DNA of 64,000 nt from Prolixibacteraceae bacterium (GTDB lineage Bacteria; Bacteroidota; Bacteroidia; Bacteroidales; Prolixibacteraceae): contig JAIBEZ010000011.1 of assembly GCA_019459485.1 (NCBI GenBank), positions 62,001 to 126,000 of the forward strand, read 5' to 3'. A program made the position numbers and the translations under genes. Positions 10,051 through 50,277 of the stretch are shown here, piece after piece; the stretch's first letter is position 1, and every line of letters starts with the position of its first letter. The notes under the pieces are model-generated. The model worked only from the letters and a program-made list of their open reading frames with translations. It was not told where the DNA came from and made no database searches.

Positions 10051-10152
10051 TTTTTATTGGTTTAGATGAATTATTAAAATCAAAAATAATAGTAAGTCTG
10101 TAAATGGTCAGACAACTTCACTGATACTTATGCAAATAAACGGTTTTAAATT

Positions 10153-12408: not shown

Positions 12409-12418
12409 TGTTGTTGAG

Positions 12419-13720
12419 TTAATTTGATTTACTCCAGGTTTCAAACATCGTAATGGCCTGATACAATACACCGGCTTCGCCTCTGAAAGTTCCGGAGCCT
12501 CGTGGCTTGTTGTCAATTGAATACCATTCGTAAAAGCCATCGTTGTCTTTTACCCTCTTTACCATGGGTTGAACCTGTTCGTATGCTTCCTGAACAAAAC
12601 CGTTTTTTATAAGTTCCTGAATCATGCGGCCTCCAAACCAGGTCCAGTCTCCTCCATTTTGATAACTGTAAACCGGATTCATAATTTTATTGGCAAAATA
12701 TCCTTCAGGATAAGGAGGATAAAGCGTGAGCCCAATGGATGCGGCCCCGGCCTGTTTAACCCGGCTGATCATTTCATCGAGCGAAATTTTGATTTCGTCT
12801 TTACTCAGCAAACCTGCCTCAATGGCAATCGCCGTTCCTCCGAAATAGTAAATTTGGTTTTCATCAAAATCGTCCGGGAACGGAGATCCTTTTTCCAAAT
12901 AGATGTGAGGAATGAATTTTTTATTCTGAACGTCCCAAAGGTGTTTCCGGCTGTTTTCGGCGATGTCGTTTCTTACTTTTCCCCATTTCTCTTTTGTCTC
13001 CGGAAGGATTTCAATCATATTGTTCAGGGCCACAATAAACATGGCGTTGTCGTAAATATCAATGGCCGGATGGGTATTTGCATCCAAATCGACACCCCAG
13101 CCATGTTCGGGCTGCACATCGCCCCAGTCGGCAGTTGTTGCGCCAATAATTAATCCATATTGCTGATTGTACCGGTGATTCATTAAAAAATCCATGGCGT
13201 CCGTCAGGCGCGCAGCCACGGTTTTATCTCCAATTTGTTCATTCAAAATGGAACTGTCACCCGTTATTTTAATGTATTTGTACACCGCCTGAACCAACGA
13301 CGATTCCTGATCGGTTTCTACAGTATTTTTATGTCCGGCATAACGCGGTTCAATCTCCGAATACGAAAAATCTGTTTCTCCTTTGCCAATTTTTTCAGCA
13401 GGTGTAAAACCATCAATAATGTTTCCGTCATCGCCCTGCATCCTGAAAAAAACCAACAGATTTTCTTTCAGTTCCTCCTTAGGATAAACCTGTCCGGCCA
13501 GTTCGATAAAGGTATTGTAGTCGCGGATCCACACTTCGCGGTAGCCATCGCCAGCGTTAAAACCGGTTTTAATTATTTCAAGCGCCTTTTGTTTAGTAAA
13601 AGCGAAATATTCGTCATTCATGATTTTAGCTGCCAATTCCTTGTCTGCTTTATTTTTTACCGGGGCAGAACAGCCAAAAGTAAATGCCAGTAAAAGACAA
13701 ATAGATAATTTCCGTTTCAT
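12419..13720 (-). CDS. Six-hairpin glycosidase-like lipoprotein
   Basis: A 433-residue protein with a lipoprotein signal (Cys17 in FTFGCSAP). The helical hairpin pattern and motifs YREVWIRDYNTFIELAG, ETDQESSLVQAVYKYIK and YQNGGDWTWFGGRMIQEL indicate an (alpha/alpha)6-toroid glycosidase of the GH15/GH37/GH63 clan type. I cannot assign a CAZy family; the hallmark motifs of GH125 alpha-mannosidases are not evident. Lying between two GH92 genes in the same operon, it probably removes a non-mannose cap or a different linkage from the same glycan (inference). Confidence 0.8.
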   Translation of the reverse strand: MKRKLSICLLLAFTFGCSAPVKNKADKELAAKIMNDEYFAFTKQKALEIIKTGFNAGDGYREVWIRDYNTFIELAGQVYPKEELKENLLVFFRMQGDDGNIIDGFTPAEKIGKGETDFSYSEIEPRYAGHKNTVETDQESSLVQAVYKYIKITGDSSILNEQIGDKTVAARLTDAMDFLMNHRYNQQYGLIIGATTADWGDVQPEHGWGVDLDANTHPAIDIYDNAMFIVALNNMIEILPETKEKWGKVRNDIAENSRKHLWDVQNKKFIPHIYLEKGSPFPDDFDENQIYYFGGTAIAIEAGLLSKDEIKISLDEMISRVKQAGAASIGLTLYPPYPEGYFANKIMNPVYSYQNGGDWTWFGGRMIQELIKNGFVQEAYEQVQPMVKRVKDNDGFYEWYSIDNKPRGSGTFRGEAGVLYQAITMFETWSKSN

Positions 13721-13739
13721 GTTTATTCAGATTATTGGT

Positions 13740-16139: not shown

Positions 16140-16202
16140 AGGTTATTTAGTTTGGACATCATTAAAGTTGTCTGGATTATTATTCATCATTATCTGTAAA
16201 TT

Positions 16203-34730: not shown

Positions 34731-34731
34731 G

Positions 34732-36543
34732 TTAGGTATTTTTAATAATTATTGGAGGTTCAATTAAATGACATTCAGGAAATTTCCCTTCAAATTTCAG
34801 GGAATCACCTTCTCCGGATTGCTTCCAGCTGGTTGTAACGCGATCAACCCCAACCGGATAAATGATGAGCTGATCTTTGGTAATGTGCAGGCGCAGAAAA
34901 TTTTTGTAATGCTGATGGGCCAGCGAGGAAAATCCTTCGTCCAGATGTACATTCAGGACATAAACACCAAACCATAAACAGATGCCGAAAATGAAACCGC
35001 CCACAATTCCTCCGGTCAATGCAGCCGCAAGAGTGGTGGAAATGACGAAAAGCATTTGTTGGCCTTCGGGAAAGAAAGGGTGAAGAAATACTGCAAAAAC
35101 GCTGAGCCAAAACATCAGGTTGAACCATTGAATTATGCCATGTGGCAGTCCGAGAAATAAATTTAAACGTTTGATTCGTTTGGTATCGGTAAATGTCATG
35201 CACCCAAAAATCAAAACAAAACTGATTAAGATGAAAAGCGGGTTGTTAATCAGGGTTTTAAAAATGATGGCAAAAGATTGACCTAAATCGGTTGTATTCG
35301 CCAACTGTTTTAAAAATGATCCTTTTATATCATAATAGGTGGTGCCTTGCAGAATCCAGGTTAACATCAATTCCACAAATGAAAGGAAAAGTACAAACTC
35401 TTTATTGAACCATGGAAATGCGAAGTTCAGGAATGACAGTTTCCACGAATCACTTTTTGAGGGGAAAGCCGCTTTCAATTCAGGATCTTTTTTCGGGGTG
35501 CTTTTTTCGAACGAAAAATCTGTTTTTGCCATTTTGGTCAATTTTTCGGGCAAAAAATGTGTGGGATGCAGAAAGGCACCTCCACCACCAGCGGTAATCA
35601 GTTGATTTACATACCCTTCTTTTTCCAATTCGTAACGCGAATAATGATGCAAATCTCCGGTAATCGTGGCAACCAGTTTAAATTTCTTGCCAATCAGTTG
35701 ATAGGCATCGTCGGTGATGTAAAGAGTTTCGAAGTATTTCAGGCGTTTGTACGATTCGTCTTCCCGGTACAACTCATGGTAAACCCATGCCGGCTCGGCG
35801 GTGCAGAGAATGACTTTGTCACCGTCTTTCATTTTATCGATGGCAATCTTCTGAAAATACTCCTTTTGCGGCTGGTCGATATCAGAGTTCAGTTGTACAT
35901 CGATTCCGAATATCCAGTAATTGTATGGCAGTTCAATGGCAAAATAGCTTCGTTCCTGTACTGTTTGCCAATTGCCAATCTGCCGTTTCTGGCAAAAGAG
36001 ACTGATAAAATTGCCCAATCCATCGTACCAATCGTGATTGCCCGGGATGGCAAACATTTTTGGATGGTTGTTTTTATCGGTTTTGTCGATACAGGGGTTT
36101 GCTGTGCCAAACGGAATTTTGAAACGATTATCGTATTCCTTCATTTCCGGGGTAGGATACACCTGATCACCTCCAAATATGATTAAATCTCCAGGTTTGG
36201 TTATAATCCCATCTTTGTATAAATCAATGTTTTTGCCTTGATTTTTAGGTTCGTAATTTTTCTTTAAAGCGAGTTTTAAGTTTTTTTCTGAAACCAGTTT
36301 TGCAATCGAATAGGTTGAATTGAACCCGTCGCCCGTATCGGAAACGTAATCAATCCAAAGTTCAGTTTCATCGCCAAAACTGATGGCTTTTGCCTGTGGT
36401 TTCAAGGCGGCCTGTATCTCACGCTTATCGGCAAAATGACCAAACTGGCCCGAAATTACAGATCTCAGCCCTGTGGCTGCCAACTGCTTGGTGTCGTACC
36501 AGTTGACCATCTTTGGCTGAATGTATTTTTTTGAAGTCGCCAT
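34732..36543 (-). CDS. Membrane-bound metallophosphoesterase
   Basis: 603 residues from MATSKKYIQPK; a further 20 residues upstream are possible but overlap a repeat-rich promoter region. Calcineurin-type motifs are DLIIFGGDQVYPTP, AIPGNHDWYDG and ITGDLHHYSRYE, giving a dimetal site. The C-terminal half has about five hydrophobic helices (for example LILISFVLIFGCMTF-like and LFVISTTLAAALTGGIVGG), so it is an inner-membrane protein with a cytoplasmic catalytic domain (topology inferred). It begins a two-gene unit with the GMC oxidoreductase. Confidence 0.88.
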   Translation of the reverse strand: MATSKKYIQPKMVNWYDTKQLAATGLRSVISGQFGHFADKREIQAALKPQAKAISFGDETELWIDYVSDTGDGFNSTYSIAKLVSEKNLKLALKKNYEPKNQGKNIDLYKDGIITKPGDLIIFGGDQVYPTPEMKEYDNRFKIPFGTANPCIDKTDKNNHPKMFAIPGNHDWYDGLGNFISLFCQKRQIGNWQTVQERSYFAIELPYNYWIFGIDVQLNSDIDQPQKEYFQKIAIDKMKDGDKVILCTAEPAWVYHELYREDESYKRLKYFETLYITDDAYQLIGKKFKLVATITGDLHHYSRYELEKEGYVNQLITAGGGGAFLHPTHFLPEKLTKMAKTDFSFEKSTPKKDPELKAAFPSKSDSWKLSFLNFAFPWFNKEFVLFLSFVELMLTWILQGTTYYDIKGSFLKQLANTTDLGQSFAIIFKTLINNPLFILISFVLIFGCMTFTDTKRIKRLNLFLGLPHGIIQWFNLMFWLSVFAVFLHPFFPEGQQMLFVISTTLAAALTGGIVGGFIFGICLWFGVYVLNVHLDEGFSSLAHQHYKNFLRLHITKDQLIIYPVGVDRVTTSWKQSGEGDSLKFEGKFPECHLIEPPIIIKNT

Positions 36544-36590
36544 TTTTCTATTGTTGTTCAATGAATATCCATAATATTGCCCAATGTCAT

Positions 36591-36665
36591 AAAAGTCATT
36601 CAATTGTCATTTTGTAGTCATTAAGTTGCCAGGAAATGACAACCGAATGACAATAAATGACCACG
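36591..36665. promoter_or_regulatory. TGACA-repeat cluster upstream of the metallophosphoesterase
   Basis: GTCATTCAATTGTCATTT (36596-36613) is an 16-of-18 inverted match to AAATGACAACCGAATGAC (about 36635-36652), and further ATGAC/GTCAT units flank them. The spacing between ATGAC units is near 11 bases. It occupies the gap between the patatin stop and the phosphoesterase start and looks like a multi-site operator. Confidence 0.45.
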
Positions 36666-36707
36666 ACTGACTGACACAAAATGCCAAATAAGTATGCAAA
36701 CGGACAG

Positions 36708-38126
36708 TCATATTTGTTTATAAACTTCGCCCAGAATCCTGAACTTTTCTCTCCATTTACCCAGCAAACCGCTGCTGCTGTTGACATGAATGAAAGGGAC
36801 GTTTTTAATCCGAATCCATGCGTTTTGCTTTAATATTGCTGAAATTGGCGTTGGCAAATTTTTACTGCTAATGGTGCAGCGGGCTTTTTTAAATTCCATG
36901 CCCAGCAATAAATCATACTGACTGTTCAAATCGAGCTTGCATTGCAGATGCTGGATTTGATCTTCAAAAACGAAATCACATTCTAGCGTTAAAATCTGTT
37001 CGGTCTGATTGATCATCACTTGATTGTTGTAAGTTGAAATCCGGTTTTCACTGTTTTCAAACGAAACGGATGCAAATGCGCGCAAAACCAATTCCCGGTG
37101 GACACTTCTGAAATTGAAATTAATGTTCAGCGAAAAATCGGTCTGTTTGTTTTTCCAGTCAATCATTCCTGAAAACAATGACCTGAAAACCAGTACAGCT
37201 CCGGGTTCATTCATCATCGAAGCTTTGTAATCGGGCGCAACTCCCAGTTCAGTTTTTCGTTGCAGATAACTTTTCGCATCGGCATAACCACGGTTGATCA
37301 GTTCGTCAGCATTGATTTTATTGAACATTAGATCAGGATCAAGCGGCAATGGGAATTCGGGTTTAATGACGTGAAGAATCGTTTTTTCAGCCGAAGGTTT
37401 TTCACTGTTAAGTTTTTCTATTTGTTCCAGTTCCAGCAGCAAACCACCATTGGCGCTAATTTCAATCATGTGCACATACTGATTAAATGTGCCGTTTAAA
37501 AATTCGTGCGAGTTTCCAATTGCCCAAACCAACCATATTTCTTTCACGTTTCGTTTCAGAGCTTCTGTGATATTGGCATCTTTAATCCACACAGCATCGG
37601 TGTACCAGTCGCCGTGAATTTCAATTGCCGGCATAAAAATGGGCAGCGACATTCCTGCCACCAAATGCTGAAGGGTTACATTCCGGTTGGAGAAAACCTC
37701 AACTGTTTTCTTCGAAAAATTGCACACATTAAAAGTGGCATCAATCGAGGTGTTGGCGTTCATTTTAGCCACATCAATTCCCAATGTGGGATATACTTTG
37801 TTGATCATTCCATCGGCATCGCCAAAGGCGGCAAATGTTTTTTTCGAGAAATAGCTCTTAAATGGCAGCAGCGACGAAAAATGCAGCACATTTACTTTTC
37901 GCCAGCGGGTGCCCATATCTTTGGCTTCAATTCCGGAGCTTAACATAGCCGTATTAAAAATTCCTCCTGAAGTGCCATCAAAATGACTGAAGCTCAAACC
38001 TTCTTCTTCCAGCGCCTTAATAACACCTGCCTGATAGGCTAGTCGTGCGCCGCCTCCAGCCAGAATCAGCGAGCGTTTGATTCCGGCAGCATTAACTTCA
38101 GCAATAATATTTTCAGGCGATGACAT
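36708..38126 (-). CDS. Patatin-like phospholipase
   Basis: 472 residues. The oxyanion motif LAGGGARLAYQAGV (22-35) and the nucleophile motif GTSGG (Ser53 at 51-55) are intact; the catalytic Asp is expected in WYTDAVWIKDANI. Patatins hydrolyse acyl esters of lipids. The C-terminal 170 residues are a beta-rich extension (SLNINFNFRSVHRELVLRAF) not found in the minimal family. It overlaps the upstream membrane gene by 14 bases, so the two are translationally coupled. Confidence 0.9.
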   Translation of the reverse strand: MSSPENIIAEVNAAGIKRSLILAGGGARLAYQAGVIKALEEEGLSFSHFDGTSGGIFNTAMLSSGIEAKDMGTRWRKVNVLHFSSLLPFKSYFSKKTFAAFGDADGMINKVYPTLGIDVAKMNANTSIDATFNVCNFSKKTVEVFSNRNVTLQHLVAGMSLPIFMPAIEIHGDWYTDAVWIKDANITEALKRNVKEIWLVWAIGNSHEFLNGTFNQYVHMIEISANGGLLLELEQIEKLNSEKPSAEKTILHVIKPEFPLPLDPDLMFNKINADELINRGYADAKSYLQRKTELGVAPDYKASMMNEPGAVLVFRSLFSGMIDWKNKQTDFSLNINFNFRSVHRELVLRAFASVSFENSENRISTYNNQVMINQTEQILTLECDFVFEDQIQHLQCKLDLNSQYDLLLGMEFKKARCTISSKNLPTPISAILKQNAWIRIKNVPFIHVNSSSGLLGKWREKFRILGEVYKQI

Positions 38127-38532
38127 TTTGAATAACCAGTTTTCGTGAATAAAAAATAATGACCACTACACCCACCAATTCAAAAGCAAGGAAAAAAAGC
38201 ATCATCCCACTTGGGATTCCGTCCATTACTATCGACATTATTCTTGCAAGAACTCCGGCACTCATGATGAAAATGAAAAGCCGGTTGAATTCCTTTTTGC
38301 TGAAAATGCTTTTCACAAACAAGATGGCGAAAACGCCGAATCCAAGTTCAATGGCTCTCAAAAACCGATACTGACTCAATAGATTGATGCGTTGAAAGTC
38401 GGTTAAAGTGTTTGTTTCCAAATTAAATAACAGCCGGTAATCAAATTCAGGATAAATAAACGCTCCCCAGAAACCGGCAACAATTACCAGTCCGATGTAG
38501 GAATAATAGAAAAAGTAATTAGCCAGCCGCAT
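38113..38532 (-). CDS. Small four-helix membrane protein (DUF4345-like)
   Basis: 139 residues with four predicted membrane helices and the stretch IPSGMMLFFLAFELVGVV near the end, resembling DUF4345. No catalytic residues can be recognised. It overlaps both neighbours by 14 bases (128-residue gene upstream, patatin downstream), so it belongs to the same tightly coupled operon. Confidence 0.75.
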   Translation of the reverse strand: MRLANYFFYYSYIGLVIVAGFWGAFIYPEFDYRLLFNLETNTLTDFQRINLLSQYRFLRAIELGFGVFAILFVKSIFSKKEFNRLFIFIMSAGVLARIMSIVMDGIPSGMMLFFLAFELVGVVVIIFYSRKLVIQNVIA

Positions 38533-38905
38533 CGATTTTGAGTGTTTTTAAATAATAGAAAAACAGGAGTGCCGAGAATAAATCGAATACGGCTACTCCG
38601 GCTGCAAGCAGAATAAATGTTCCATTAAAAACGCCGATAAAAACGGCCACCGAAGCGCCTAATTTTTGTAAGCCCGACCAAATTACCACGACCCGGCTAT
38701 TGTCTTCGTGGTACAATGCGTGAATCATCATTGCGCCAAACAAAAACATGAACATGCCGATGGTTGCAAACAATTGTTTGGAGGTCGTGTTAATTTCGGC
38801 ACCAACAAAATTCAGCACAAAGACTGGAGCTATTGCCTGCATCGCGCCAGAAAACAAGGTGGCAACCGAAATCAGCAAAATTATGAGCCGGATATATTTT
38901 TTCAT
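38519..38905 (-). CDS. Small membrane protein
   Basis: 128 residues, four hydrophobic helices, with FATIGMFMFLFGAMMIHALY in the second helix region. It is similar in size and layout to the next gene and may be a divergent paralogue of it. The function is unknown; it starts three bases after the stop of the 159-residue gene and overlaps the next one. Confidence 0.7.
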   Translation of the reverse strand: MKKYIRLIILLISVATLFSGAMQAIAPVFVLNFVGAEINTTSKQLFATIGMFMFLFGAMMIHALYHEDNSRVVVIWSGLQKLGASVAVFIGVFNGTFILLAAGVAVFDLFSALLFFYYLKTLKIDAAG

Positions 38906-38908
38906 CTG

Positions 38909-39388
38909 TTACGGTTTACGCGCTTTGGCAATGAAATAATACATGGTGATGCCCCACATTACAGCAAGAATATAAAACCTCACATCATTGTAAAACATCC
39001 AGTCTTTCAATAATTCCTGAAGTACAGCCTGATCGGTTACACCAGCCTTAAATTGGTCGTTGATATCTTCTATAAACTTTTGCTGCGTCACCACCGGAAC
39101 GAGCAGGCCGGGAATCCACGCCAGCGGAATCCAGCGGAATCTGGTTTTCCATTCTGTAATCAACATGATTACCAAAGCAACTGCCATAATCGGAATGGAA
39201 ATAAAGAAAAACTTCGTGGCCGTATCGGTTTGGGGAATAATCGCATCGTAATAATTGCTTACATTCAGCTTGGTCGGGTAGTTCGGGAAAAAGAAAAAGT
39301 GAAGTGTCCAGAACATTCCAAGGTAAATGGACGAGCAAAAAAAGATGTACGCATTATTGATGTCGAGGAGGGTCTGTTTTAGATTCAT
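38909..39388 (-). CDS. Membrane protein, possibly DUF1772-like
   Basis: 159 residues with four membrane helices (for example IYLGMFWTLHFFFFPNY and PIMAVALVIMLITEW). A His in the first helix region and an interhelical segment with DQAVLQELLKDWMFYNDVRF recall DUF1772/anthrone-oxygenase-like proteins, but this is weak. It lies 12 bases after the acetoacetate-decarboxylase-like gene in one operon. Confidence 0.7.
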   Translation of the reverse strand: MNLKQTLLDINNAYIFFCSSIYLGMFWTLHFFFFPNYPTKLNVSNYYDAIIPQTDTATKFFFISIPIMAVALVIMLITEWKTRFRWIPLAWIPGLLVPVVTQQKFIEDINDQFKAGVTDQAVLQELLKDWMFYNDVRFYILAVMWGITMYYFIAKARKP

Positions 39389-39400
39389 GACGAGGTAGTT

Positions 39401-40288
39401 TTAGATTTTGAATTTTTCGTAATCGGTAATCGATGGCGCTTCCAGCCAATCTTCGTTGAGTCCCAGATTAAACACACTTTCAAATCCTTCAGGAGTGACT
39501 TTTTCGGGCTTATTTTCATAGGTCATAAACCAACATTCAAAATGATCGTCCAGGATGCCGGTGGTTTCAGGCATGTACATCGTGAAAAATGGTTTGCTTT
39601 CAATTTGCAGGTCTTTTAAGAATTTGGTTCGGGGATGGTCGCCAATAAACAACCGGCCGGTAGCACTTTTCCCCAGCCTGATTCCGGCTTTCGATTTAAA
39701 ATGAATGTACGAGGCCATCAGCATATTCCGGAAATGACTGTAGTTGATTGCGCTGAGGTTGATCGGGAAGTTGGTCTTTTGCGGTTTGTCAATTTCGATC
39801 CGGAAAGCAAACTGCCCGTCTTTTTCGTACTGCGAACTAACCTGACTGTCGGTGATGATGAAATCGAGGTTGGCTTTGTGTTTCGGCATTCCCCATATTC
39901 CTTTCCCACCTTTAACCGATACTTCGGAGCTTACCGGCAGATCCAGAATGAACTGACCGGTTTTGTAGGTTTTCATCATCATTGCCGGAAGCATTGGCGG
40001 AGCTGGTTTTCTGCCGCGGGTTACTGCCAACGCAATGCTGTATTCAATGTATTTGCCAATGGTGGTAACCCGATAATCAATTACTGTAACCATAAAAACA
40101 GCTTTGCCAAAGGCCTTTACCGGATGCAACTCATTTCCGGGTAAGATGGCTTTGGCTTTCTCGTAATCACATAAAAACCCAGCCATTATCGCGGGCGATT
40201 GGGTGGCGCCTACCGGTAGTTTAAAAGTGATTCCATCAACCATCGAATACCGGCCTTCGTAATCTTTTATTCGTTCGGATACTGACAT
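39401..40288 (-). CDS. Acetoacetate decarboxylase-like protein
   Basis: 295 residues of the ADC superfamily. Typical features are the GRKPAPPMLPAMMMKTYKTG stretch and VKGGKGIWGMPKHKANLDF, the latter containing a lysine pair near the family's Schiff-base position. Many relatives outside Clostridium act on other keto acids, or are aldolase-dehydratases, so acetoacetate is not assured. It opens the operon that runs through the three membrane proteins to the patatin. Confidence 0.85.
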   Translation of the reverse strand: MSVSERIKDYEGRYSMVDGITFKLPVGATQSPAIMAGFLCDYEKAKAILPGNELHPVKAFGKAVFMVTVIDYRVTTIGKYIEYSIALAVTRGRKPAPPMLPAMMMKTYKTGQFILDLPVSSEVSVKGGKGIWGMPKHKANLDFIITDSQVSSQYEKDGQFAFRIEIDKPQKTNFPINLSAINYSHFRNMLMASYIHFKSKAGIRLGKSATGRLFIGDHPRTKFLKDLQIESKPFFTMYMPETTGILDDHFECWFMTYENKPEKVTPEGFESVFNLGLNEDWLEAPSITDYEKFKI

Positions 40289-40384
40289 AATTTATAGCTG
40301 TTTTTAAATGGTAGTAATTTTCAGCAATGGATAACTCATTCTTTATTAGTTCAATAATTTTGATTCAATTATTGACAGTTCGAA

Positions 40385-40657
40385 TTACTCTGAAGTTGTC
40401 GGGTCGATAATTGTTGATACCGGGCTGACCGAATTTGCAGGAAATCCACCTTGTATGGCATGTTCACGAACCATTTCTTCGTTTGGTGCTATATAAACAC
40501 AATAGATTTTGTCGGTCGTCACAAAACTATTTACCCACTGAATTTGCGGCCCCATTTTAGAGAGTACACCACATGAAACTTGTGAAATGGCCTTCAATTG
40601 TTCGGCAGATAATTTACCTGCACCGGGAATTTCCCTTTCAATTACATACTTTGGCAT
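40385..40657 (-). CDS. DUF4242 family small protein
   Basis: A 90-residue ferredoxin-fold protein matching DUF4242: PKYVIEREIPGAG at the start, VNSFVTTDKIYCVYIAPNEE in the middle and HAIQGGFPANSVSPV near the end. Members bind nickel or act as unknown stress-linked proteins (family knowledge; no clear role). It stands alone between the hydrolase and the ADC-like operon, same strand. Confidence 0.85.
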   Translation of the reverse strand: MPKYVIEREIPGAGKLSAEQLKAISQVSCGVLSKMGPQIQWVNSFVTTDKIYCVYIAPNEEMVREHAIQGGFPANSVSPVSTIIDPTTSE

Positions 40658-40792
40658 AATTTTAATTTTTTTGTCTCCAACTCTTCTGGCTTTTCGGAAA
40701 TACGCCCCGTTTTTTTTAGTGGTCTCTGGTTTCCACTTTTCATTCGCGTTATCAAATATTTTGTGAACTATAGAAATTGAAGCTGTAGTTTG

Positions 40793-41806
40793 TCATAAAT
40801 TCAATTCATCAATCATCACAGGAAAAATATCTTTGTGTGCGTTCTTCCCCAGAAAAATATCCAAATGACTATACGTGTCATACACATGCAATTTGTGAAA
40901 TCCAGGTTTCAGGGCATTGAAATATTCATAGGAATTCACCTGACTTTCACTCCTGAAACATTTGTTGAGCTTTCCGGCGAAAAAAGCAAAACGTGCATCG
41001 GTTGCAGGAATTCTTTCAGCATAGTGTCTGGCTCCATTTACCGAAACCAATGAACCGTTATGTACACCTTTCCGGATGTGCCTGAAAAAATGTACCGGCA
41101 CCGGACCAAATTCATTTCTGATCCAGTCCATCGTTTCATCGCTGAGGTTTTCCAGCTCCCACAATGCCGGAAATCCTGCGCCGTAAGTAAAACTTACAAA
41201 TTTTCCGACGTTGGTATCTTTTTCAAAATGGGTGGCAAGTACCAAAGCCCTGAAAAACTTCGAACGAAAATCCGGAGCTTCGTCGCCCCAGCGCGGATTG
41301 AGGTAATCGGTGATCATACCGGCAATTTCCAGAACAACATCCAGCTTAACCCGCGACCACAAAGGCACTACCGGATGGAGTGAAACGGCATTGGTGACAA
41401 TTGTTTTAACCTGAGGAATCAAGCCTTCGACAGCAGAAATCATAAAACTGGTGGAACCCTGGCAATGAATAATGGCTTTGCAGGATGCTGAACCATTTAC
41501 TTCGCAAACCTTTTGAATGGCAGCCGGGTGGTCGTTTTTTGCCACCACATCCAGGTCCCATTTATTGGGCCGGAACTCGGTGCTGGCGCGCCAGTTTTCG
41601 AGAAATACATCGTAACCAGCCTCGGCAAGCATATCCAGCAAATTAACTTCGTTCGGCGGATTGAAAATATTGGCCCGAACGCCTGCACCATGCACCAGCA
41701 TAACCGGTCCGCGATGTTTTGAATGACCGTGTTTTAAACGCCAAAGGTTGCATTCGAATCCATCGAAGGCTTTAAAAGGAATAATATCGAATGTATGGTT
41801 TGGCAT
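40793..41806 (-). CDS. Alpha/beta hydrolase with Cys at nucleophile position
   Basis: 337 residues. The oxyanion region is VMLVHGAGVRANIF (about 35-48). The nucleophile elbow, normally GHSxG, reads IHCQGST with Cys115 in place of Ser, and the late His is expected in YDTYSHLDIF. The same elbow with Cys occurs in hydrolase domains found with, or fused to, large cholesterol-oxidase-like GMC proteins, so this is probably a real subfamily trait and supports a functional link with the GMC gene 6 kb away. The substrate is unknown; an acyl or lactone carbonyl is plausible. Confidence 0.85.
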   Translation of the reverse strand: MPNHTFDIIPFKAFDGFECNLWRLKHGHSKHRGPVMLVHGAGVRANIFNPPNEVNLLDMLAEAGYDVFLENWRASTEFRPNKWDLDVVAKNDHPAAIQKVCEVNGSASCKAIIHCQGSTSFMISAVEGLIPQVKTIVTNAVSLHPVVPLWSRVKLDVVLEIAGMITDYLNPRWGDEAPDFRSKFFRALVLATHFEKDTNVGKFVSFTYGAGFPALWELENLSDETMDWIRNEFGPVPVHFFRHIRKGVHNGSLVSVNGARHYAERIPATDARFAFFAGKLNKCFRSESQVNSYEYFNALKPGFHKLHVYDTYSHLDIFLGKNAHKDIFPVMIDELNL

Positions 41807-41871: not shown

Positions 41872-41897
41872 TGTCAATAGCACAAACGTGTCATTTT
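41872..41897 (-). promoter_or_regulatory. 26-base shared upstream element, copy 1
   Basis: The element contains CAATAGCACAAACGTGTCA and lies 66 bases upstream of the alpha/beta hydrolase start. A second copy differing at one base lies at 44858-44883. See the findings. Confidence 0.6.
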
Positions 41898-41902
41898 GCA
41901 AG

Positions 41903-41940
41903 AAAAAAGCCCAATAAGGTTTTAAAATCTTATTGGGCTT
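41903..41940 (-). terminator. Intrinsic terminator of the C1 peptidase operon
   Basis: The arms AAGCCCAATAAG (41907-41918) and CTTATTGGGCTT (41929-41940) form a perfect twelve-base-pair stem with a ten-base loop. On the minus strand it is followed by T6, 32 bases after the stop of the 621-residue gene. Confidence 0.9.
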
Positions 41941-41972: not shown

Positions 41973-43838
41973 TTAACTTTTACAGAACGACAGCCAATCA
42001 TGAATGTTAGAATGCTGACCTTCACCGTTTGTGAGTTTTAATTCTACTGTCAGATAAACAGTGTAAGCACATTTTTTCAAGGAACTAACAGGAAACAAAG
42101 CTGGATTATGCAATTCAGTCGCCGTACCAAATGTTTCGGGGACTGAACTTACCGGTGTTACATTTTGAATAGAAAATGGTCCGTCAGGTCCGTACAAAGT
42201 CAAGCTAACTGCTCCCATATTTGGATTAGCTGCAGTATAATTAAAATGCAGTGCATTGGTTATAGGAGTACAACCTGTGCCTCCGCCACCTCCGATTAAT
42301 TCCTGAATATCAACACAAGCTACTCCCATTTCACTTGAAACCTGTGGCATCCATGATCCAAATTGCGGTACATTTTGATATACTGTATTGAACATTGCAA
42401 TCGGATTGGAAACACCGGCAATTATTTCAGAGAGCGGATTGCCTGCCTCGCGTTTGATCATCCGGATTTTGAAGAATCTGTTTCCCTGAAGCGGAGCTAT
42501 GGTAGTTGTGGATTGACCTTGTACCAACCCAGCCATATTTACAGTGGCACCATTTAGAACAGTTGTATTCAGGCTTAATAATTCGCCGTTTATATTTGGC
42601 GAAAAATTTGATGCCTGCGGAACAGCTATCCATCCAGCTGCATCCACCCCTCCGCTTACATTGCCGACTTTATAAGGTATAATTGAGATTGGATTCAGTG
42701 GATCACCGGTCAGAGTAAAAAATGTACCAATTTCAGCTTCGCACATTTGAGGGGCCATAACTTTTTTCCATGAACCTATTTCAACACCGGCAGGGCCGGA
42801 TGTTTCAATGGTTTCAAAACTGTATTCCATTGCTGTGCCGTTCAGTTTCTGACTTAAGTTGCCACGCAGTTTTATGCAGCTGTAAAATGCCTGTCCGGCA
42901 GGAGTTTTTCCTGTAGCCAACGCAATTACATTTGGATTGCCACTTGCAACTACTTCGTTGATAAAGTGGTTGCCATTGTTTCCGATTTTTGTGAATGAAG
43001 CAGGAATGCCGGGATCGGGAACTACAATTTCTTTCAGACATAAATTTACACACAGGCAGTAACCAACATTTTTTCTCCGGTCAGAAGCCGTTTCACCCTG
43101 AATGCCAACGCCATTGTATTCATATTTAAAATAAACATCAGGGCCACTCTTAAATGTTGGAGGGAATCCCTTATCAGTTTCGATGTTAATCAACGGAGAT
43201 AAAAATGTTTTCTTGAAATCGGCCGAAGTATAATCAATCCTGAAATGTCCGCTTGAATCGGTGACAGCACTTCCCAGATTGTCATCAGAAATGAAATCTG
43301 CATCCATTGCTGTTACTTTTACATTAGAGATAGGCGTTTTTGTTCCGCAAACAAACATGTGCCCGCAAATTACCCATGCGTCAAAATAATTCCCTCTTAT
43401 GTAACACCACCATTTATCGGTGATACAATAGTTCCATTGGAAATGGTAGCTTTCCTCCTGCCTGTCAATCCTCCATTGCGGGAAAATACTAGTTAGATGA
43501 AATTGCAGAAGTTCTTTACGCGGAGGTTTCGGAGGGCCTCCTGGTACAGTTCCGCAGGTAAAATCAATATCAAAAGCTGTTTGACTGTACTTTTCATTCA
43601 ATACAAATTCATAATTGCCTTTTGAATCGGTTTTGGAAGTTGCTATCAGCAGATCTTTTCTGGCTGCGGCTTCTTCCTTGGTTACGAGGCGAAACGTGTC
43701 TTTTGTATCGGCAACAACATGGCTAACAACATTCTCTTTTTGCCAGGGCAGGTAGAGAAGTACTTCCATTCCGGAAAGCGGTTCGTTACAATCGTCACAT
43801 AGAGAACCGCAAAGATTCCCTCTTAATATAAAATTCAT
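41973..43838 (-). CDS. Unrecognised beta-rich protein, partner of C1 peptidase
   Basis: 621 residues that I do not recognise as a whole. There is no signal peptide or membrane helix. The N-terminus has a Cys cluster (RGNLCGSLCDDCNEPLSGME) at the head of a transthyretin/CNA-B-like beta-sandwich (to about residue 95). A second similar sandwich with ICGHMFVCGTKTPISNVKV follows at about 155-250. The last 350 residues are Ser/Thr/Gly-rich beta-type sequence containing IQELIGGGGGTGCTPITNAL. It starts 12 bases after the peptidase stop and the pair ends in one terminator. Substrate, inhibitor or structural shell for the peptidase are all possible. Confidence 0.8.
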   Translation of the reverse strand: MNFILRGNLCGSLCDDCNEPLSGMEVLLYLPWQKENVVSHVVADTKDTFRLVTKEEAAARKDLLIATSKTDSKGNYEFVLNEKYSQTAFDIDFTCGTVPGGPPKPPRKELLQFHLTSIFPQWRIDRQEESYHFQWNYCITDKWWCYIRGNYFDAWVICGHMFVCGTKTPISNVKVTAMDADFISDDNLGSAVTDSSGHFRIDYTSADFKKTFLSPLINIETDKGFPPTFKSGPDVYFKYEYNGVGIQGETASDRRKNVGYCLCVNLCLKEIVVPDPGIPASFTKIGNNGNHFINEVVASGNPNVIALATGKTPAGQAFYSCIKLRGNLSQKLNGTAMEYSFETIETSGPAGVEIGSWKKVMAPQMCEAEIGTFFTLTGDPLNPISIIPYKVGNVSGGVDAAGWIAVPQASNFSPNINGELLSLNTTVLNGATVNMAGLVQGQSTTTIAPLQGNRFFKIRMIKREAGNPLSEIIAGVSNPIAMFNTVYQNVPQFGSWMPQVSSEMGVACVDIQELIGGGGGTGCTPITNALHFNYTAANPNMGAVSLTLYGPDGPFSIQNVTPVSSVPETFGTATELHNPALFPVSSLKKCAYTVYLTVELKLTNGEGQHSNIHDWLSFCKS

Positions 43839-43850
43839 AATCGTATGGTT

Positions 43851-44774
43851 TTATGGTTTAAAATGTCCTGTATCAATCCATTCATTTTTTAGCAGCGACC
43901 ACCAGTCAATGGCAAGGCCTTTGAGTACATATTCGTAAGGCAGCCAGCCATAGCCATTGTCACCCCACCCGGTTCCCCAGGAGTTTCGGATAAGCAGTGC
44001 GCCAGTTGTTTCGGCACCGCCAACATTTGTATTTTTGATTTTCATTTTGTCGTCGTAGCCTGCTGCAACGATGGCATGTCCGCCTTCAATCTTATCGCCT
44101 TTGGTCGGGTAGGGGATTTTACCCTCATTGCTGCCGGCCTGTGCTATGGAGCTGTACACTGAAAACCCGAACATAGAAGGAAGTCCGGCGGCAAGGTTTG
44201 TTTTGATGCGGTTCAGTAATTCAGCCCGGGTTGTTCCTGAAGGGTCGAGCCGGTAGTAGCTCATGGGCTGATAGTTCTGGGCAAAGGCATAGCAAAATGC
44301 AGTTGGTTCCTTGTCGAATTTTGAAACTTCGTAAGGCCAGTATTCTTCGGGCGGAACACCAAAAAGCACTAATGCGCCCATGGTGGTCCTCAGAAATGCA
44401 CCGGTGTCACCAGTCTCGTGCATAAGGTTTCGGGTAGCTTTGTATAAGAACAAACGCGAAGCATCAACGTGTTTTCCAAATGCGCGGCGTTCAAAATACT
44501 CGACCAGCCCAACACCGGCATTTGCAGTACATGAGCCGATTGAGCCCTGATCTTCGATGGGTGGAAACCAACTGCGCAGAGAAACCGATTTAGGAATTGT
44601 GGCTTTTGCGGTAACTGATGCACCTGTTTTTGAAAGCATTTCCTTTATCGAATCATTTTGTCCGAGTCCTTTCAGGCGGGTTGATACATTTTCCTGATCA
44701 ACGGTGAGATCCCTGAAATCAGGAAAATCCGGCAGCCAGCCCATTGTTAGTCTTCTGCGAATAAATTCACTCAT
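43851..44774 (-). CDS. Papain-like C1 family cysteine peptidase
   Basis: 307 residues with all catalytic elements: Gln76 and Cys82 in IEDQGSIGSCTANAG, His233 in EGGHAIVAAGYDD and Asn264 in LLIRNSWGTGWGDNGYG. The N-terminal LPDFPDFRDLTV motif is shared with bacterial C1A peptidases. There is no signal peptide and no obvious propeptide, so it probably acts in the cytoplasm. A strong Shine-Dalgarno (AAAGGAGGT, eight bases before ATG) fixes the start and is unusual for this phylum. It is divergent from the unknown/CHAT/TPR genes across a 540-base gap. Confidence 0.93.
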   Translation of the reverse strand: MSEFIRRRLTMGWLPDFPDFRDLTVDQENVSTRLKGLGQNDSIKEMLSKTGASVTAKATIPKSVSLRSWFPPIEDQGSIGSCTANAGVGLVEYFERRAFGKHVDASRLFLYKATRNLMHETGDTGAFLRTTMGALVLFGVPPEEYWPYEVSKFDKEPTAFCYAFAQNYQPMSYYRLDPSGTTRAELLNRIKTNLAAGLPSMFGFSVYSSIAQAGSNEGKIPYPTKGDKIEGGHAIVAAGYDDKMKIKNTNVGGAETTGALLIRNSWGTGWGDNGYGWLPYEYVLKGLAIDWWSLLKNEWIDTGHFKP

Positions 44775-44857
44775 TGCAACCTCCTTTGTTAAAATTAATA
44801 AGTATAGACCATCTTTGTTAATTGTAATTTATGAAAGTTAAAGAGAAGTTTCAAAAA

Positions 44858-44883
44858 TGTCAATAGCACGAACGTGTCATTTT
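44858..44883 (-). promoter_or_regulatory. 26-base shared upstream element, copy 2
   Basis: The element contains CAATAGCACGAACGTGTCA, matches copy 1 at 25 of 26 bases, and lies 83 bases upstream of the C1 peptidase start. In this copy the centre is palindromic (CACG-AA-CGTG). Confidence 0.6.
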
Positions 44884-45068
44884 ACAGCGATGGGTACCGC
44901 ATGATCTGAACAATAACAATGGAAGGTTGTTGGAAATTTATCGTTTTGGATTGAAAAATGGAGTGCGCGAATTTTTGAGAACCGTAGAATTGTAGTCCTC
45001 TTTAAACACATCAGGTGTTTTTAAATAGTGCTGAAAATAAGAATGATATGTGGGAGTAAAAACAGGAT

Positions 45069-45179
45069 TTAACTTCTGCGTTTGCGGTATAAATAAAAGA
45101 AATAAACGAATATTACAGCAAGCGCGAGAATCCAGGCTCCCCAGCCAATGCCCCAACCCCAAGAGTAATCGTTCATCAT
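45069..45179 (-). CDS. Small single-helix membrane protein
   Basis: A 36-residue frame opens with two Met, then DYSWGWGIGWGAWILALAVI (a Gly/Trp-rich start running into one membrane helix), and ends with the basic tail LYRKRRS. The composition and N-out/C-basic layout are typical of real small membrane proteins rather than chance. It lies in the gap between the divergent C1 peptidase and CHAT units; any role is unknown. Confidence 0.6.
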   Translation of the reverse strand: MMNDYSWGWGIGWGAWILALAVIFVYFFYLYRKRRS

Positions 45180-45316
45180 TTTTTTAGTTTTTAGTTATTG
45201 AATTTTAGTTTTTGAGATTTTGATTTCCTGATGTAAAGTTGAAACTATTTGTTATGAGAATCGTTACATAAATCTGATCGAAATTTACATGATTCACACA
45301 TTTAAAACTTAATAAT

Positions 45317-46369
45317 ATGGGCCTGAAAGATCTTTTTAAAAGCCTGGCAAGTTCGCCAACAGTTTTGCCTTATCTCCTGCACATTCCCAATGGTAATACA
45401 GATGATCCTGAAGGGTTGGCCGGAGAATTTGAACCTCAGCAGCATTATTTTACAGTAAGGGTGAACGAAATGTTTCTTTCAGAAAAGCGCAGGTGGATGA
45501 AGGAAATTGAGCCAATGGTTGTTTGCCTGACCAGCTATGTTTACGGTGAGCAGGAAATTGACAATCCATTCATTGTTGGCCGTAGTCTCATCGAGTCAAA
45601 AATGCAGAATGTCCCTGATGGAATGGTATTCCACGATACGCGTGTGGCAGGTATCCATCCGTTTTCCGGTGGCAGGTTAATTGTCAGCATTGCATTGTGC
45701 CAATCTGTGACAAAAGATTATTTGTCGGATTCGCTTGAATTTATTGAAAAAGTTTCAGGCGTTTTCAATGAGAATATTACCTCTTTGATAGGTAGTTACA
45801 CGAAAATAGCCAATGTTGTAATTGATGGGATCGATAAATTGTTCGACTCAAATGCGGTAACACCGCTTTTTGGCTTCAGAAAAGAATTTGATCAGGATGC
45901 AAACGATCAATTTTCTCCGGGTTATTATGTAATGATAGATAAATCGGATAAAAAATGGAATGCAGCCAATTTCTTCGTGAAAGAAAACAGGCTCTACTAT
46001 GGCGATAATGTGGATTCAGCGAAAGAATTCAGGCACGACGAATATGTATTGTTCAGTATTACACGTTCCGATGAAAGGGGCGACACAACTTTATTGCCGG
46101 TTTATCAGTCCTACAAAAAAATACTGGATGTTTTAAAGGTAAATGAAGTGAGCCAGGACACGAAAGATAAGGTGAAAGACATGTTGCGGGTGCTGAACAT
46201 TGAAATGCAGCAAAGCCCCGACCTTACAGAACCTCACGCAAAAAAACTCATACAGAAATACATTGATGATGTGGGCAAATTGATCGAACCTAAATTTAAC
46301 TGGGGAGTAAAGTCAGCCGTGAAGAATGATTTCTGGAGCGATATGGACGCGAAGATCATGAATATTTAG
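45317..46369 (+). CDS. Unrecognised protein, first gene of CHAT operon
   Basis: 350 residues that I do not recognise. It is soluble, with no signal peptide. The first half is beta-type (EFEPQQHYFTVRVNEMFLSE, EIEPMVVCLTSYVYGEQEID); a middle region has FSPGYYVMIDKSDKKWNAAN and a C-terminal helical part ends KNDFWSDMDAKIMNI. It opens the operon and the CHAT gene follows after 15 bases. A sensor or adaptor role is conceivable but unsupported. Confidence 0.78.
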   Translation: MGLKDLFKSLASSPTVLPYLLHIPNGNTDDPEGLAGEFEPQQHYFTVRVNEMFLSEKRRWMKEIEPMVVCLTSYVYGEQEIDNPFIVGRSLIESKMQNVPDGMVFHDTRVAGIHPFSGGRLIVSIALCQSVTKDYLSDSLEFIEKVSGVFNENITSLIGSYTKIANVVIDGIDKLFDSNAVTPLFGFRKEFDQDANDQFSPGYYVMIDKSDKKWNAANFFVKENRLYYGDNVDSAKEFRHDEYVLFSITRSDERGDTTLLPVYQSYKKILDVLKVNEVSQDTKDKVKDMLRVLNIEMQQSPDLTEPHAKKLIQKYIDDVGKLIEPKFNWGVKSAVKNDFWSDMDAKIMNI

Positions 46370-46384
46370 CCTAAACAAACGAAC

Positions 46385-47896
46385 ATGGCAAATTACATCA
46401 ATATAAAGATCAACATCGAACAGGGCGGAATCTGTTTTACCAAAGATGAACTTCCTGCTCCACGTTCACCCTTTCAGATTGACGACGATGATACCAAGGC
46501 CAATAATATCAGGGTAGAACTGGGCATTGCGAAGGTTTTCCACAAGGTGCTCAATCTGATCAAAACCGAACGTGAATTGTTTCAGAAAGAAGATTTTGAG
46601 CTGCTGGGCGAAATGCTGTCGAAGATAATGTTTGGCCGCATCAACAACAACGATGATATCAGGAATTTTATAATGAAGATCGTCGAACAGTCGCTTGAAA
46701 TAAATAACAGTTCGAGCAAAACAATCTGCCGGATATATCTGGAGTTCGATCAGAAATCGGGTGTGGCCATGTTGCCCTGGGAATACATTCTTTACAAAAC
46801 CCGCAGCCTTGACGTTCCCCGATCAATTTATCTTTCGGCCAATCTCAAAAGTCGTTTTCACCTGATGCGAAGGGTAAAAGATAACAATTATGAACGTCCA
46901 TTTTCCGAACGGCTATTCGTTATCGTGCTGGTCAATGTTGCCGGAAATGGAGATGTTGAACCTCCGATTGACAGCCGGACAGGCGAACTGAAAACAATAG
47001 AAAAAACCTTTAAAACATTGCAGGATAAGTTTTTTGACAAATTGGTTGTTGAATATATTGAATCAACTCCATTTAATAAAATAAAGCAGGAGGTCGAGGA
47101 AATCTACAAAAGATGGGAAATTGAATATCAGCAAAAACCAAGCTATGCAATACATTATCTTGGGCATTCGATGCTGGACGAGCAGGTCGGAAAATTGGTC
47201 GCACTTTCTGCGGAAACCGGGAAGCCCGACTGGGTGGAGGATAAAAAATTTGCGGCCATTTTTAATGAGGAGAAATTAAATATCGAACAACCTTGCATGG
47301 TTTGTTTTCAGTCGTGCGACAGCGCCAAAATCGGAAGTTTCAACGATATCTTGCGCGGAGTTGCCATTGAGTTTACCAAGATCAATATTCCGGCGGTAAT
47401 AGGAATGCAAAATGAGATAAATACTGCTTATTCCTGCGCATTTTTCGACCGGTTTTACGAGAGTATTCTGAATGAAAAGGATGTGGCAGAGGCAGTTACA
47501 GCCGGAAGGGATTATCTCGGCAGGGAATACAACAATGATACAGACGCCTACATTAATAACTCATTTGGGAGCCCTGTGCTTTTTATAACCACCAAAGAAC
47601 CAATCCAGATTATTCAGGCAGCCGCTGCACCTGTAAAAATGGTTAAAAGCGAAGAATTTAAACCCGAAATGAACATGAATATCAGGAATTCGGTCATGAT
47701 GGACAGGATTAGCAGCAATTCAAACATGAATGATAATAGAACCGCATCCATTTACATGCCTGATAATGATGACAGTTTATACCGCTCTGTAAAAACAGTG
47801 CACTCAGATCTTAACCCGGTCTCTGCGGCGCAACCGATAATTGATCCAAGAGATACTTCGTCGCCAAATGTTCAACCTAAAAATTCTGATGAATGA
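46385..47896 (+). CDS. CHAT-domain caspase-like protease
   Basis: 503 residues. The CHAT core spans about 115-405: LPWEYILYKT opens it, the catalytic His261 sits in YAIHYLGHSML and the catalytic Cys311 in CFQSCDSAKIGSF. It continues with GVAIEFTKINIPAVIGMQNE and closes at FGSPVLFITT. CHAT proteins are clan CD cysteine proteases related to caspases and separase; some, such as the TPR-CHAT partner of type III-E CRISPR, act in phage defence. Here the TPR part is a separate gene that starts inside this gene's stop (ATGA overlap). The last 100 residues are low-complexity Asn/Asp/Ser-rich and may be a flexible linker or a processing site. Confidence 0.9.
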   Translation: MANYINIKINIEQGGICFTKDELPAPRSPFQIDDDDTKANNIRVELGIAKVFHKVLNLIKTERELFQKEDFELLGEMLSKIMFGRINNNDDIRNFIMKIVEQSLEINNSSSKTICRIYLEFDQKSGVAMLPWEYILYKTRSLDVPRSIYLSANLKSRFHLMRRVKDNNYERPFSERLFVIVLVNVAGNGDVEPPIDSRTGELKTIEKTFKTLQDKFFDKLVVEYIESTPFNKIKQEVEEIYKRWEIEYQQKPSYAIHYLGHSMLDEQVGKLVALSAETGKPDWVEDKKFAAIFNEEKLNIEQPCMVCFQSCDSAKIGSFNDILRGVAIEFTKINIPAVIGMQNEINTAYSCAFFDRFYESILNEKDVAEAVTAGRDYLGREYNNDTDAYINNSFGSPVLFITTKEPIQIIQAAAAPVKMVKSEEFKPEMNMNIRNSVMMDRISSNSNMNDNRTASIYMPDNDDSLYRSVKTVHSDLNPVSAAQPIIDPRDTSSPNVQPKNSDE

Positions 47897-50277
47897 TTAC
47901 CAAACAGGATATTGCAGCTATTTTTTCAGCCGCTTATGCAAGCGCTTCCCTGCGCAGCGATTGTGATATGCGCATGGTCGCCGATTTGTTTGAAACCGTC
48001 AGGTCGCAACTTGATTTCTCTGATCCTTATGAAACCTGGGATTATATCGTTACCGACCGCCTGAAATATGACAATGAACTTTCGGTTGAATTGCTTTCGG
48101 AGGTAAGGGACAGCTATTTTAATTTCTTCTTCGGCAAGTTGTTGTCGCATTTGGATTCGATGTATTTGACCGAACCTGAAGCCGCGATTTTATTTTGGGA
48201 AGAGGCTTGCGCTGAGGCAGCCATCTATTGCAGGGAAGATGCGCTTTACATGTTGTGTTTGCAGCAGCAAAAGCGGGGAATAAAAAGCAAAATGCTTGAC
48301 CAAAACTTAAAACTTGCGAAACTGATACAGGAAAGCCGCTGGGTCGATACGGTTCCGTTTTATGAAGATATTGCATCAAATGATAAATTCCCCAAAAAAA
48401 TACGTGCTTTTGCTGAAATAGTAATTTTCCAGATCATCATTTATCAATACCTGGAATTTTCGAAAGCGCCAAAACACATCGAAAATGCAGAAGCTTTATT
48501 GCCCGGACATTTCCTGATTACAAGAAGCTGGGCTGAATATTACCTGAAAATCGGGGAGACTGAAAAGTCACGCGATTATATACTGCGGGTAATGTCCATA
48601 AAGCCAAGTGATTATACGGCTTTAAATCTTCTCGGCGATTCATTTATGGCTGAAAATAAACCTGAAAGTGCAGAGTCGTGGTACAATGATGCATCGCAGA
48701 AAAATATCCTGCAAACAGATTCATACCGAAGATTGCTCATCCTTTTCGGAATAAAAACTTGGTTCGCCGATAAATGGCCGCGGATAGAGGAATTGGTGCA
48801 GTTAATTGGGAAAAGGCCGAAATACGGGAATTACAATCAGCTTGTTGAAAAAGGACTTGCTGAAGCTGATTGCTTTAAGGACCTGCAATTGTACCATGCT
48901 TTCCGGGTTATTGCTGATGCCTTTATTGGCAATGATGCGCCGGAAAAAGCGGAGGAATGGTATCTGAAAGCGCAATTACTTCATCCTGAAATAGCAACAG
49001 CGTATATTGATCTGGCATATCTAAAACTTCACCTCAACCAGCATAAGCAGGCAAAAGCATTGCTTTTACAGGCAAAAGAAGTTGACAAGGAAAATTTCGA
49101 GGTGTATTGGGCCCTGGCATACTATTACCAACTTCAGGAACAAAAAGAAGAAGCGCTTGAATGTTATGAAAAATGCTTTGGGTTGCGGCCTCATTGGGAA
49201 GATATGATCAATAATTTTATCGGAAATCTTTATTATTCGCTCAAGGAATACGATCAGGCAATTGCCTTTTACCGGAAAGCGGTTGACATCAACGATCAAT
49301 ATCCGGTTTTCGCCGGAAATCTTGGAGGAGCCTATCAGATTTTGGCGGATCAATTGTTTGGTAGTAAGGATTATACGGCTGCTGAAAAGATGTATATTGA
49401 AGCTGCCAAAGCCGACAATGATGCCAACAGGTGGAATACCCTGGGAAATTTCTATTATGACATGAAGCGCTGGAACGACGCAATCGACAATTACAAGAAA
49501 GCAATGGAAATCAGACAGGATCCTGTTTTTCTCGAAAACTGCGGGCTGGCTTACGAACGGAACGGGAATTTTAAGGAAGCTGAAAAATACTATCAGGAAG
49601 CGCTTGAAGTTGATCCCGAATCGGCAAAGTTGTTTAACCGGTTGGGCGTTTTTTATCACGACCAGACTGACTATGAAAAATCCATTGGCTGTTACCTGAA
49701 AGCGCTTGAACGTGAGCCTCAAAATCTACTTTACCTTGAGAACCTTGCGCTCGCTTATTCAATGAAAAATGATTACGACGCAGCGATTGAAACCTATGAG
49801 AAATTTTTACAGATAAGTTCGGCCAACGCAAAGATTTTGAATGCGATGGGGGTTATTTATTACAATCAGGAGCAATACGGATCGGCCATTGAAATGTACC
49901 GCAAAGCCCTTGAAATCGACAAGGATAATTTCTTGTACACTAAAAATCTTGGATTGGCTTATCGCGTTTCAGGATCTGCTGACGAAGCAATTGAAACTTA
50001 TAAAAAGGCACTTGAAATCAATGATTCAGATTACATCGTATGGAACGAACTTGGTGTTTTGAGTTACAACGGGTATGACAATGAGAATGCTATAACATAT
50101 TATCAGAAAGCGATTGAACTCAAACCTGATGATCCTGTATTGTACTCAAATCTTGCAATGGTATTCAACACACAGGGTAAAACCGATGAAGCATTGAACA
50201 TTATGGACAATTATCAGGTGTCGGAAGCAGTGAAAACCGAAGTGAATTTATTGTTGAAGGATTCTCTCACATACTAA
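47893..50277 (+). CDS. Long TPR-repeat protein coupled to CHAT protease
   Basis: 794 residues. The first 170 are helical with no clear repeat; from about 175 to the end runs a superhelix of tetratricopeptide repeats, with clear units such as AIAFYRKAVDINDQYPVFAG, AEKYYQEALEVDPESAKLFN and AIETYKKALEINDSDYIVWN spaced 34-37 residues. It overlaps the CHAT gene by four bases (ATGA), so the two are translated together. TPR superhelices bind peptides or partner proteins; here it is the likely recognition or regulatory half of a split TPR-CHAT protease. Its stop is six bases from the stop of the convergent desaturase. Confidence 0.9.
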   Translation: MITKQDIAAIFSAAYASASLRSDCDMRMVADLFETVRSQLDFSDPYETWDYIVTDRLKYDNELSVELLSEVRDSYFNFFFGKLLSHLDSMYLTEPEAAILFWEEACAEAAIYCREDALYMLCLQQQKRGIKSKMLDQNLKLAKLIQESRWVDTVPFYEDIASNDKFPKKIRAFAEIVIFQIIIYQYLEFSKAPKHIENAEALLPGHFLITRSWAEYYLKIGETEKSRDYILRVMSIKPSDYTALNLLGDSFMAENKPESAESWYNDASQKNILQTDSYRRLLILFGIKTWFADKWPRIEELVQLIGKRPKYGNYNQLVEKGLAEADCFKDLQLYHAFRVIADAFIGNDAPEKAEEWYLKAQLLHPEIATAYIDLAYLKLHLNQHKQAKALLLQAKEVDKENFEVYWALAYYYQLQEQKEEALECYEKCFGLRPHWEDMINNFIGNLYYSLKEYDQAIAFYRKAVDINDQYPVFAGNLGGAYQILADQLFGSKDYTAAEKMYIEAAKADNDANRWNTLGNFYYDMKRWNDAIDNYKKAMEIRQDPVFLENCGLAYERNGNFKEAEKYYQEALEVDPESAKLFNRLGVFYHDQTDYEKSIGCYLKALEREPQNLLYLENLALAYSMKNDYDAAIETYEKFLQISSANAKILNAMGVIYYNQEQYGSAIEMYRKALEIDKDNFLYTKNLGLAYRVSGSADEAIETYKKALEINDSDYIVWNELGVLSYNGYDNENAITYYQKAIELKPDDPVLYSNLAMVFNTQGKTDEALNIMDNYQVSEAVKTEVNLLLKDSLTY

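Follow-up and report, generated by a model that had tools for sequence, protein, structure and literature searches.

A 64,000-nucleotide (nt) stretch of DNA from a Prolixibacteraceae bacterium (GenBank assembly GCA_019459485.1, contig JAIBEZ010000011.1, positions 62,001 to 126,000; hereafter the window) carries between 41973 and 50277 five genes arranged in two divergent groups. One group encodes a papain-like C1 peptidase and a transthyretin-like protein of 621 amino acids (aa), here termed TTR621; the other encodes a protein of 350 aa from an unnamed family (p350), a CHAT caspase-like protease and a TPR protein (Table 1). The original prediction, drawn by a model from the nucleotide sequence, presented the five genes as one proteolytic system. 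The comparisons described below place emphasis on p350, CHAT and TPR, which may form a transferable three-gene cassette lying beside a separate C1-TTR621 unit.

All five open reading frames (ORFs) were confirmed, as were the intact catalytic residues of both cysteine proteases, the ATGA overlap joining the CHAT and TPR genes (a spacing of -4 nt, that between p350 and CHAT being 15 nt) and the terminator that closes the C1-TTR621 group. The CHAT protein belongs to its family both by a Pfam score above cut-off and by a His/Cys dyad, His261 and Cys311 being invariant in the four CHAT proteins aligned (4/4), and its proteolytic activity is predicted on these grounds; the only match of its profile in the PDB was a CHAT protein (8tl0, E 2.1e-6). 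The C1 peptidase has the set Gln76, Cys82, His233 and Asn264, and its closest solved structure is PDB 3OIS (E 2.1e-36), which we take to be xylellain; the long match, covering the catalytic residues, together with the Gln/Cys/His/Asn set assigns it to the 3OIS-type C1 peptidases. Inspection by eye found no evident export signal. The 350-aa protein, which the original prediction called unknown, matched no Pfam family above cut-off; NCBIfam, PADLOC (searched to E 0.1) and PHROGs also gave no match. Between C1 and p350 the original prediction had overlooked a 36-aa membrane-type ORF.

Table 1. Features of the p350 locus and its surroundings, in window coordinates
Feature	Position	Strand	Evidence or remarks
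TTR621	41973-43838	-	621 aa; Pfam transthyretin-like TTR-52, 35.5 bits (cut-off 24.9)
C1 papain-like (3OIS-type) peptidase	43851-44774	-	307 aa; Pfam Peptidase_C1, 48.3 bits (cut-off 20.7)
p350, unnamed family; putative partner, substrate or output	45317-46369	+	350 aa ORF
CHAT caspase-like protease	46385-47896	+	503 aa; Pfam CHAT, 31.5 bits (cut-off 24); His261/Cys311
TPR protein, putative sensor	47893-50277	+	794 aa; many Pfam TPR matches
Intrinsic terminator 3' of TTR621	41900-41940	-	hairpin 41907-41940, then minus-strand T run
25-nt element upstream of C1	44859-44883	-	repeat comparison within window
25-nt element, second copy, upstream of alpha/beta-hydrolase gene	41873-41897	-	repeat comparison within window
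36-aa membrane-type ORF between C1 and p350	~45069-45179	-	readable also in G662 locus L117
Stretch missing from same-genus genome G662 (empty site)	45314-50272	.	~29 unalignable bases there instead

Genome G651 (locus L116), from a different family of the class, carries the right-hand trio again, with p350, CHAT and TPR in identical order and strand. The three proteins of this second locus (361, 487 and 1032 aa) are 29.6, 30.4 and 28% identical to those of the window, with the first 200 residues of the TPR protein, which precede most of the repeats, at 22%; the intergenic gaps are 16 and 50 nt vs 15 and -4 nt in the window. No C1 or TTR621 match occurs in the 20 kb compared for L116. Recurrence of three genes in the same order is beyond chance, and matches to the CHAT protein were obtained in 5/395 genomes of the phylum, four of them being weak local matches inside larger frames. 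A description of the trio was not found in the literature searched, a search that left most subscription journals outside.

A genome of the same genus (G662) has the site without the cassette: window positions 44977-45313 (90% identical) are followed there by 29 non-aligning bases and then by the equivalent of window 50273 onward (88% identical). The trio is absent from this genome, and the C1-side intergenic DNA persists there as far as the contig extends, to window position 44977; C1 itself was not found in the parts searched of 60 further contigs. Since p350 is present in one of 11 genomes of the genus, that of the window included (two of the 11 are less than 80% complete), we take insertion in the genome of the window to be likelier than loss.

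The p350 family was found in 2/295 genomes of the class and 2/395 of the phylum (own genome included in both; the phylum count did not change with a broader profile), and in two of the 13 genomes in the family of G001. Nine loci are known from these searches: the window, L116, L005 (genome G001), L009 (a Saprospiraceae record), L011 (genome G462) and four plasmid-borne loci from Pseudanabaena (L036), Prosthecochloris (L037), Sporomusa (L038) and Rhizobium (L039), the records being assigned to Bacteroidota, Cyanobacteriota, Chlorobiota, Bacillota and Pseudomonadota. L010 lies on the same contig as L005 and was counted once, and genome G001, found with L004, is the genome of that contig. Viral contigs yielded no relative to four single-protein queries (other than the window p350), nor did phage records to one query; the accessions of four relatives and two locus tags were not found in the literature searched.

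Members of the family measure 350-429 aa and share a core of approximately residues 25-275, with conservation that peaks around 51-150, drops beyond ~275 and leaves a less conserved tail. Thirteen columns are invariant among the nine sequences (Y44, F45, L54, R58, P66, P84, G88, P115, L127, Y203, L226, L245 and D256) and no catalytic set is evident among them. No 19-residue hydropathy window reaches 1.6, which indicates no clear membrane segment. None of the nine members reached the cut-off of a Pfam family, and the p350 profile retrieved three PDB matches, all with E >2. These features would suit a non-enzymatic partner or output protein.

What most of the relatives have in common is the company of a peptidase, which is encoded by the next gene in 6/9 p350 loci: CHAT in the window, L116 and the Rhizobium plasmid, a caspase in Pseudanabaena, a C1 peptidase in Sporomusa and a C70/C39-like peptidase, with a secretion-type N-terminus by eye, in L011 (where ORFs shorter than 120 aa were passed over). 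In control stretches of ~50 kb each, with peptidases counted by name, the Sporomusa plasmid had 0/38 peptidase genes and the Rhizobium plasmid 1/40; the p350-caspase adjacency in Pseudanabaena is weak evidence because 8/28 genes of the control stretch there encode CHAT or caspase proteins. Setting aside Pseudanabaena and the window, which was found through its CHAT, leaves 4/7 loci (P 1.9e-4 at an assumed 5% per locus). A further candidate, a degenerate CHAT that seemed likely by eye at Sporomusa L038:4101-4718, gave nothing in Pfam and 0.4 bits with the CHAT profile and was not counted.

The other neighbors vary with the locus. On the Rhizobium plasmid a GAF-domain gene is followed by CHAT and then p350, S8 peptidase genes lie farther out, and the GAF-domain gene is another type of sensor in the place of TPR. 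In Pseudanabaena p350 is preceded by VMAP-C, MoxR (by annotation) and caspase-AAA genes and followed by the caspase gene, an unidentified gene and an EAD10-NTPase gene; this is a conflict locus of the kind described in PMC7159879. Several observations concern the surroundings of these loci and of CHAT genes more generally: 50 kb of the Pseudanabaena plasmid (L180) hold seven CHAT genes, one caspase gene and several TPR genes; the p350 relative of L011 lies near SIR2-like and other PADLOC-matching genes (5653-16628), possibly a defense island; the p350 relative of G001 has a Dyp-type peroxidase gene ~4 kb away on its upstream side (L005:6169-7875); and the genome of the window encodes a second CHAT protein (L118:272-3172, 966 aa, CHAT E 1.5e-59) with a secretion-like N-terminus by eye and no p350 match within the 12 kb compared.

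The left-hand group has a different distribution. C1 relatives occur in 55/238 genomes and TTR621 in 16/247, own genome included in both cases. Twenty-five other C1 regions were compared, drawn from 20 of the genome match rows and five of 33 plasmid records, several of them cut by contig ends; L052 (C1 with TTR621) and L038 (C1 with p350) were reached via the partners and kept apart. Neither p350 nor TTR621 was present in any of the 25 (0/25), a CHAT match occurred in one (Nostoc) and TPR-repeat matches in five; in most of the regions compared, these 3OIS-type peptidases thus lack the partners found beside the window C1. Among 14 of the 16 non-own match rows for TTR621 (G455 and the weak G313 were left out), C1 lies near TTR621 in one, L052, in the same order as in the window, and the others had no recurring partner by eye. 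Copies of C1 in small-genome bacteria of the phylum that belong to another class reach 73% identity to the window protein, which suggests transfer. On two rhizobial plasmids (L106 and L107) a C1 gene and a LanM lanthipeptide synthetase gene are divergently oriented.

A 25-nt element lies ~85 nt upstream of C1 and a second copy, differing at one position, ~67 nt upstream of an alpha/beta-hydrolase gene; its chance expectation is 0 (none in 100 shuffles), and the window holds no third copy at up to three mismatches and hence none before p350. The 20-nt core of the element was found in 5/178 loci compared, all of them this same genomic place. The element is a candidate binding site of a regulator and, because it precedes both genes, C1-TTR621, a separately terminated unit, is probably co-regulated with the neighboring lipid-type hydrolase gene. 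A single transcript with the lipid genes was also considered and was set aside in view of the terminator, the common upstream element taking its place; the hairpin and T run were read by eye and are absent from the list of a mechanical scan with a loop limit of 8. A match to the lipid-cluster genes was seen in 0/25 other C1 regions, which counts against a lipid link of C1. The hydrolase gene heads a minus-strand run of lipid type (32394-41806) that continues with ADC-like, patatin, metallophosphoesterase and GMC oxidoreductase genes and includes small membrane proteins; a frame in the gap 40289-40792 is presumably DUF4242-like. In the stretches compared, synteny with G662 is interrupted between window positions 26359 (L134) and 44977 (L117), which suggests a variable region.

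The trio has partial counterparts among described systems. In Craspase (PMC9935389, PMC9729208, PMC10028731), TPR and CHAT cooperate and TPR-CHAT is coupled to a sensor of the target. The pairing of TPR and CHAT is shared with this type III-E system (gRAMP/Cas7-11 with the TPR-CHAT protein Csx29), but there the two form one polypeptide whereas in the window they are products of two overlapping genes accompanied by p350. No Cas family was recognized among 20 window genes scanned, and no search for CRISPR arrays was made over the whole window. The description of Canu (PMC12799240) reports a caspase complex that activates a pro-nuclease, TPRs occurring in such loci. Like the cassette, Canu and related protease and pro-nuclease pairs are small loci that combine a caspase-type protease, a partner and a protein that is acted upon; their pro-nuclease is of metallo-beta-lactamase type, whereas p350 had no match above cut-off to a nuclease family in its nine members and has no evident catalytic set. 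By the features tested, the cassette belongs to neither Craspase nor Canu.

The vWA-MoxR systems (VMAP, iSTAND) are NTP-dependent conflict systems for which PMC7159879 also describes Trypco, partner domains that co-occur with peptidases; by analogy, Trypco may be taken as a precedent for p350. One p350 relative, that of Pseudanabaena, lies inside such a locus, but by Pfam the window cassette lacks MoxR, vWA and VMAP and any other NTPase. When the trio was compared with PADLOC, the best match of CHAT was SAVED_CHAT (17.9 bits) and the TPR protein gave repeat matches of up to 42.9 bits; the window CHAT differs from SAVED-CHAT/CalpL in having no Pfam SAVED domain, and no CRISPR family was recognized among the genes scanned. 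Bacterial gasdermin operons place several kinds of peptidase beside a non-enzymatic protein, and the reading of p350 as a non-enzymatic protein beside various peptidases recalls that arrangement, although no gasdermin structure appeared among the PDB matches of the p350 profile at E up to 5.

Taken together, gene order, tight spacing, recurrence in L116, absence from G662, the CHAT dyad and the recurrent peptidase neighbors of p350 lead us to propose, with a probability of about 0.55, that p350-CHAT-TPR is a transferable module of regulated proteolysis lying beside an unrelated C1-TTR621 unit. In this module the TPR protein, larger in L116 than in the window, would act as the sensor and would switch on the CHAT protease; CHAT would then cleave p350, or p350 would position CHAT, and the released or re-shaped p350 would be the output, most likely of a conflict (defense or self-limiting) response. 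Several points weigh against this proposal. A single other complete trio was found, and the gene next to p350 is not a peptidase in 3/9 loci (L005, L009 and L037), two of which, L009 and L037, have instead a gene that is lipoprotein-like by eye, with no homology found between the two. Neither a target duplication nor a terminal inverted repeat is evident at the cassette ends, and the G+C content of the trio genes (0.407-0.415 vs 0.421 for the window) gives no sign of recent transfer. The role of p350 as CHAT substrate is itself putative, its fold predicted from three sequences (mean predicted local distance difference test score, pLDDT, of 41.7) was too poor for use, and Pfam recognized no defense gene among the 20 window genes scanned. 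On the Sporomusa plasmid, moreover, a C1 relative (49.5% identical) directly precedes p350 on the same strand.

This last pair bears on whether the two groups form one system, as had been predicted with TPR activating CHAT and CHAT in turn activating C1. The claim of linkage stands for the right-hand trio, which recurs in L116, and is not supported for the full set of five, seen nowhere else; as for the two halves never co-occurring, which would have broken the link, the Sporomusa pair narrowly keeps it alive beside the 0/25 other C1 regions with p350. A Nostoc plasmid adds a C1-domain protein near CHAT-domain and caspase genes, and because of these two plasmid neighborhoods papain-like proteases may at times enter such circuits. 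The Sporomusa pair counts against full independence of the halves, and the adjacency of C1 in the window is not proved empty. As the principal explanation, a single five-gene system is nevertheless disfavored by the empty site of G662, which keeps the C1-side intergenic DNA, by the L116 trio without a C1 match and by the 25 C1 regions; with the element that C1 shares with the hydrolase gene and the separate termination of C1-TTR621 also speaking against it, this explanation is improbable.

Two further possibilities concern the trio itself. The protein p350 could be a peptidase adaptor, inhibitor or chaperone in ordinary regulated proteolysis, such as that of stress or development, outside conflict systems: it accompanies unrelated peptidase types, shows no evident catalytic set and stands in three of nine loci without an adjoining peptidase, and the scanned genes around the window cassette offered no defense gene. 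Presence and absence within a genus, four plasmid locations and the VMAP-C/MoxR neighborhood fit an accessory conflict gene better, so that such a housekeeping role is regarded as possible and on balance doubtful. The come-and-go distribution and the plasmid-borne relatives could be those of a selfish, addiction-like module in which a toxic pair of CHAT and p350 is restrained by TPR and kept for its own maintenance, not for host defense; the trio has no match to a toxin- or antitoxin-type family in Pfam, PADLOC or NCBIfam, and we consider this origin quite unlikely.

A growing theme in bacterial immunity is the circuit whose caspase-like protease activates a second protein, and few of these second proteins have been identified. 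For the p350-CHAT-TPR cassette the earlier finding is corrected in that the neighboring papain-like protease probably shares its regulation with a lipid gene, and attention moves to the three-gene cassette, whose novelty rests on p350. A bolder and decidedly tentative extension is that p350 founds a new class of output proteins under protease control, connected in different bacteria to proteases (CHAT, caspase, C1, C70-like) and sensors (TPR, GAF, VMAP/MoxR) that can replace one another, in a prokaryotic parallel to caspase-gasdermin circuits. A family without a name in the libraries searched, found beside unrelated proteases of several kinds and beside different sensors, points to an undescribed output.

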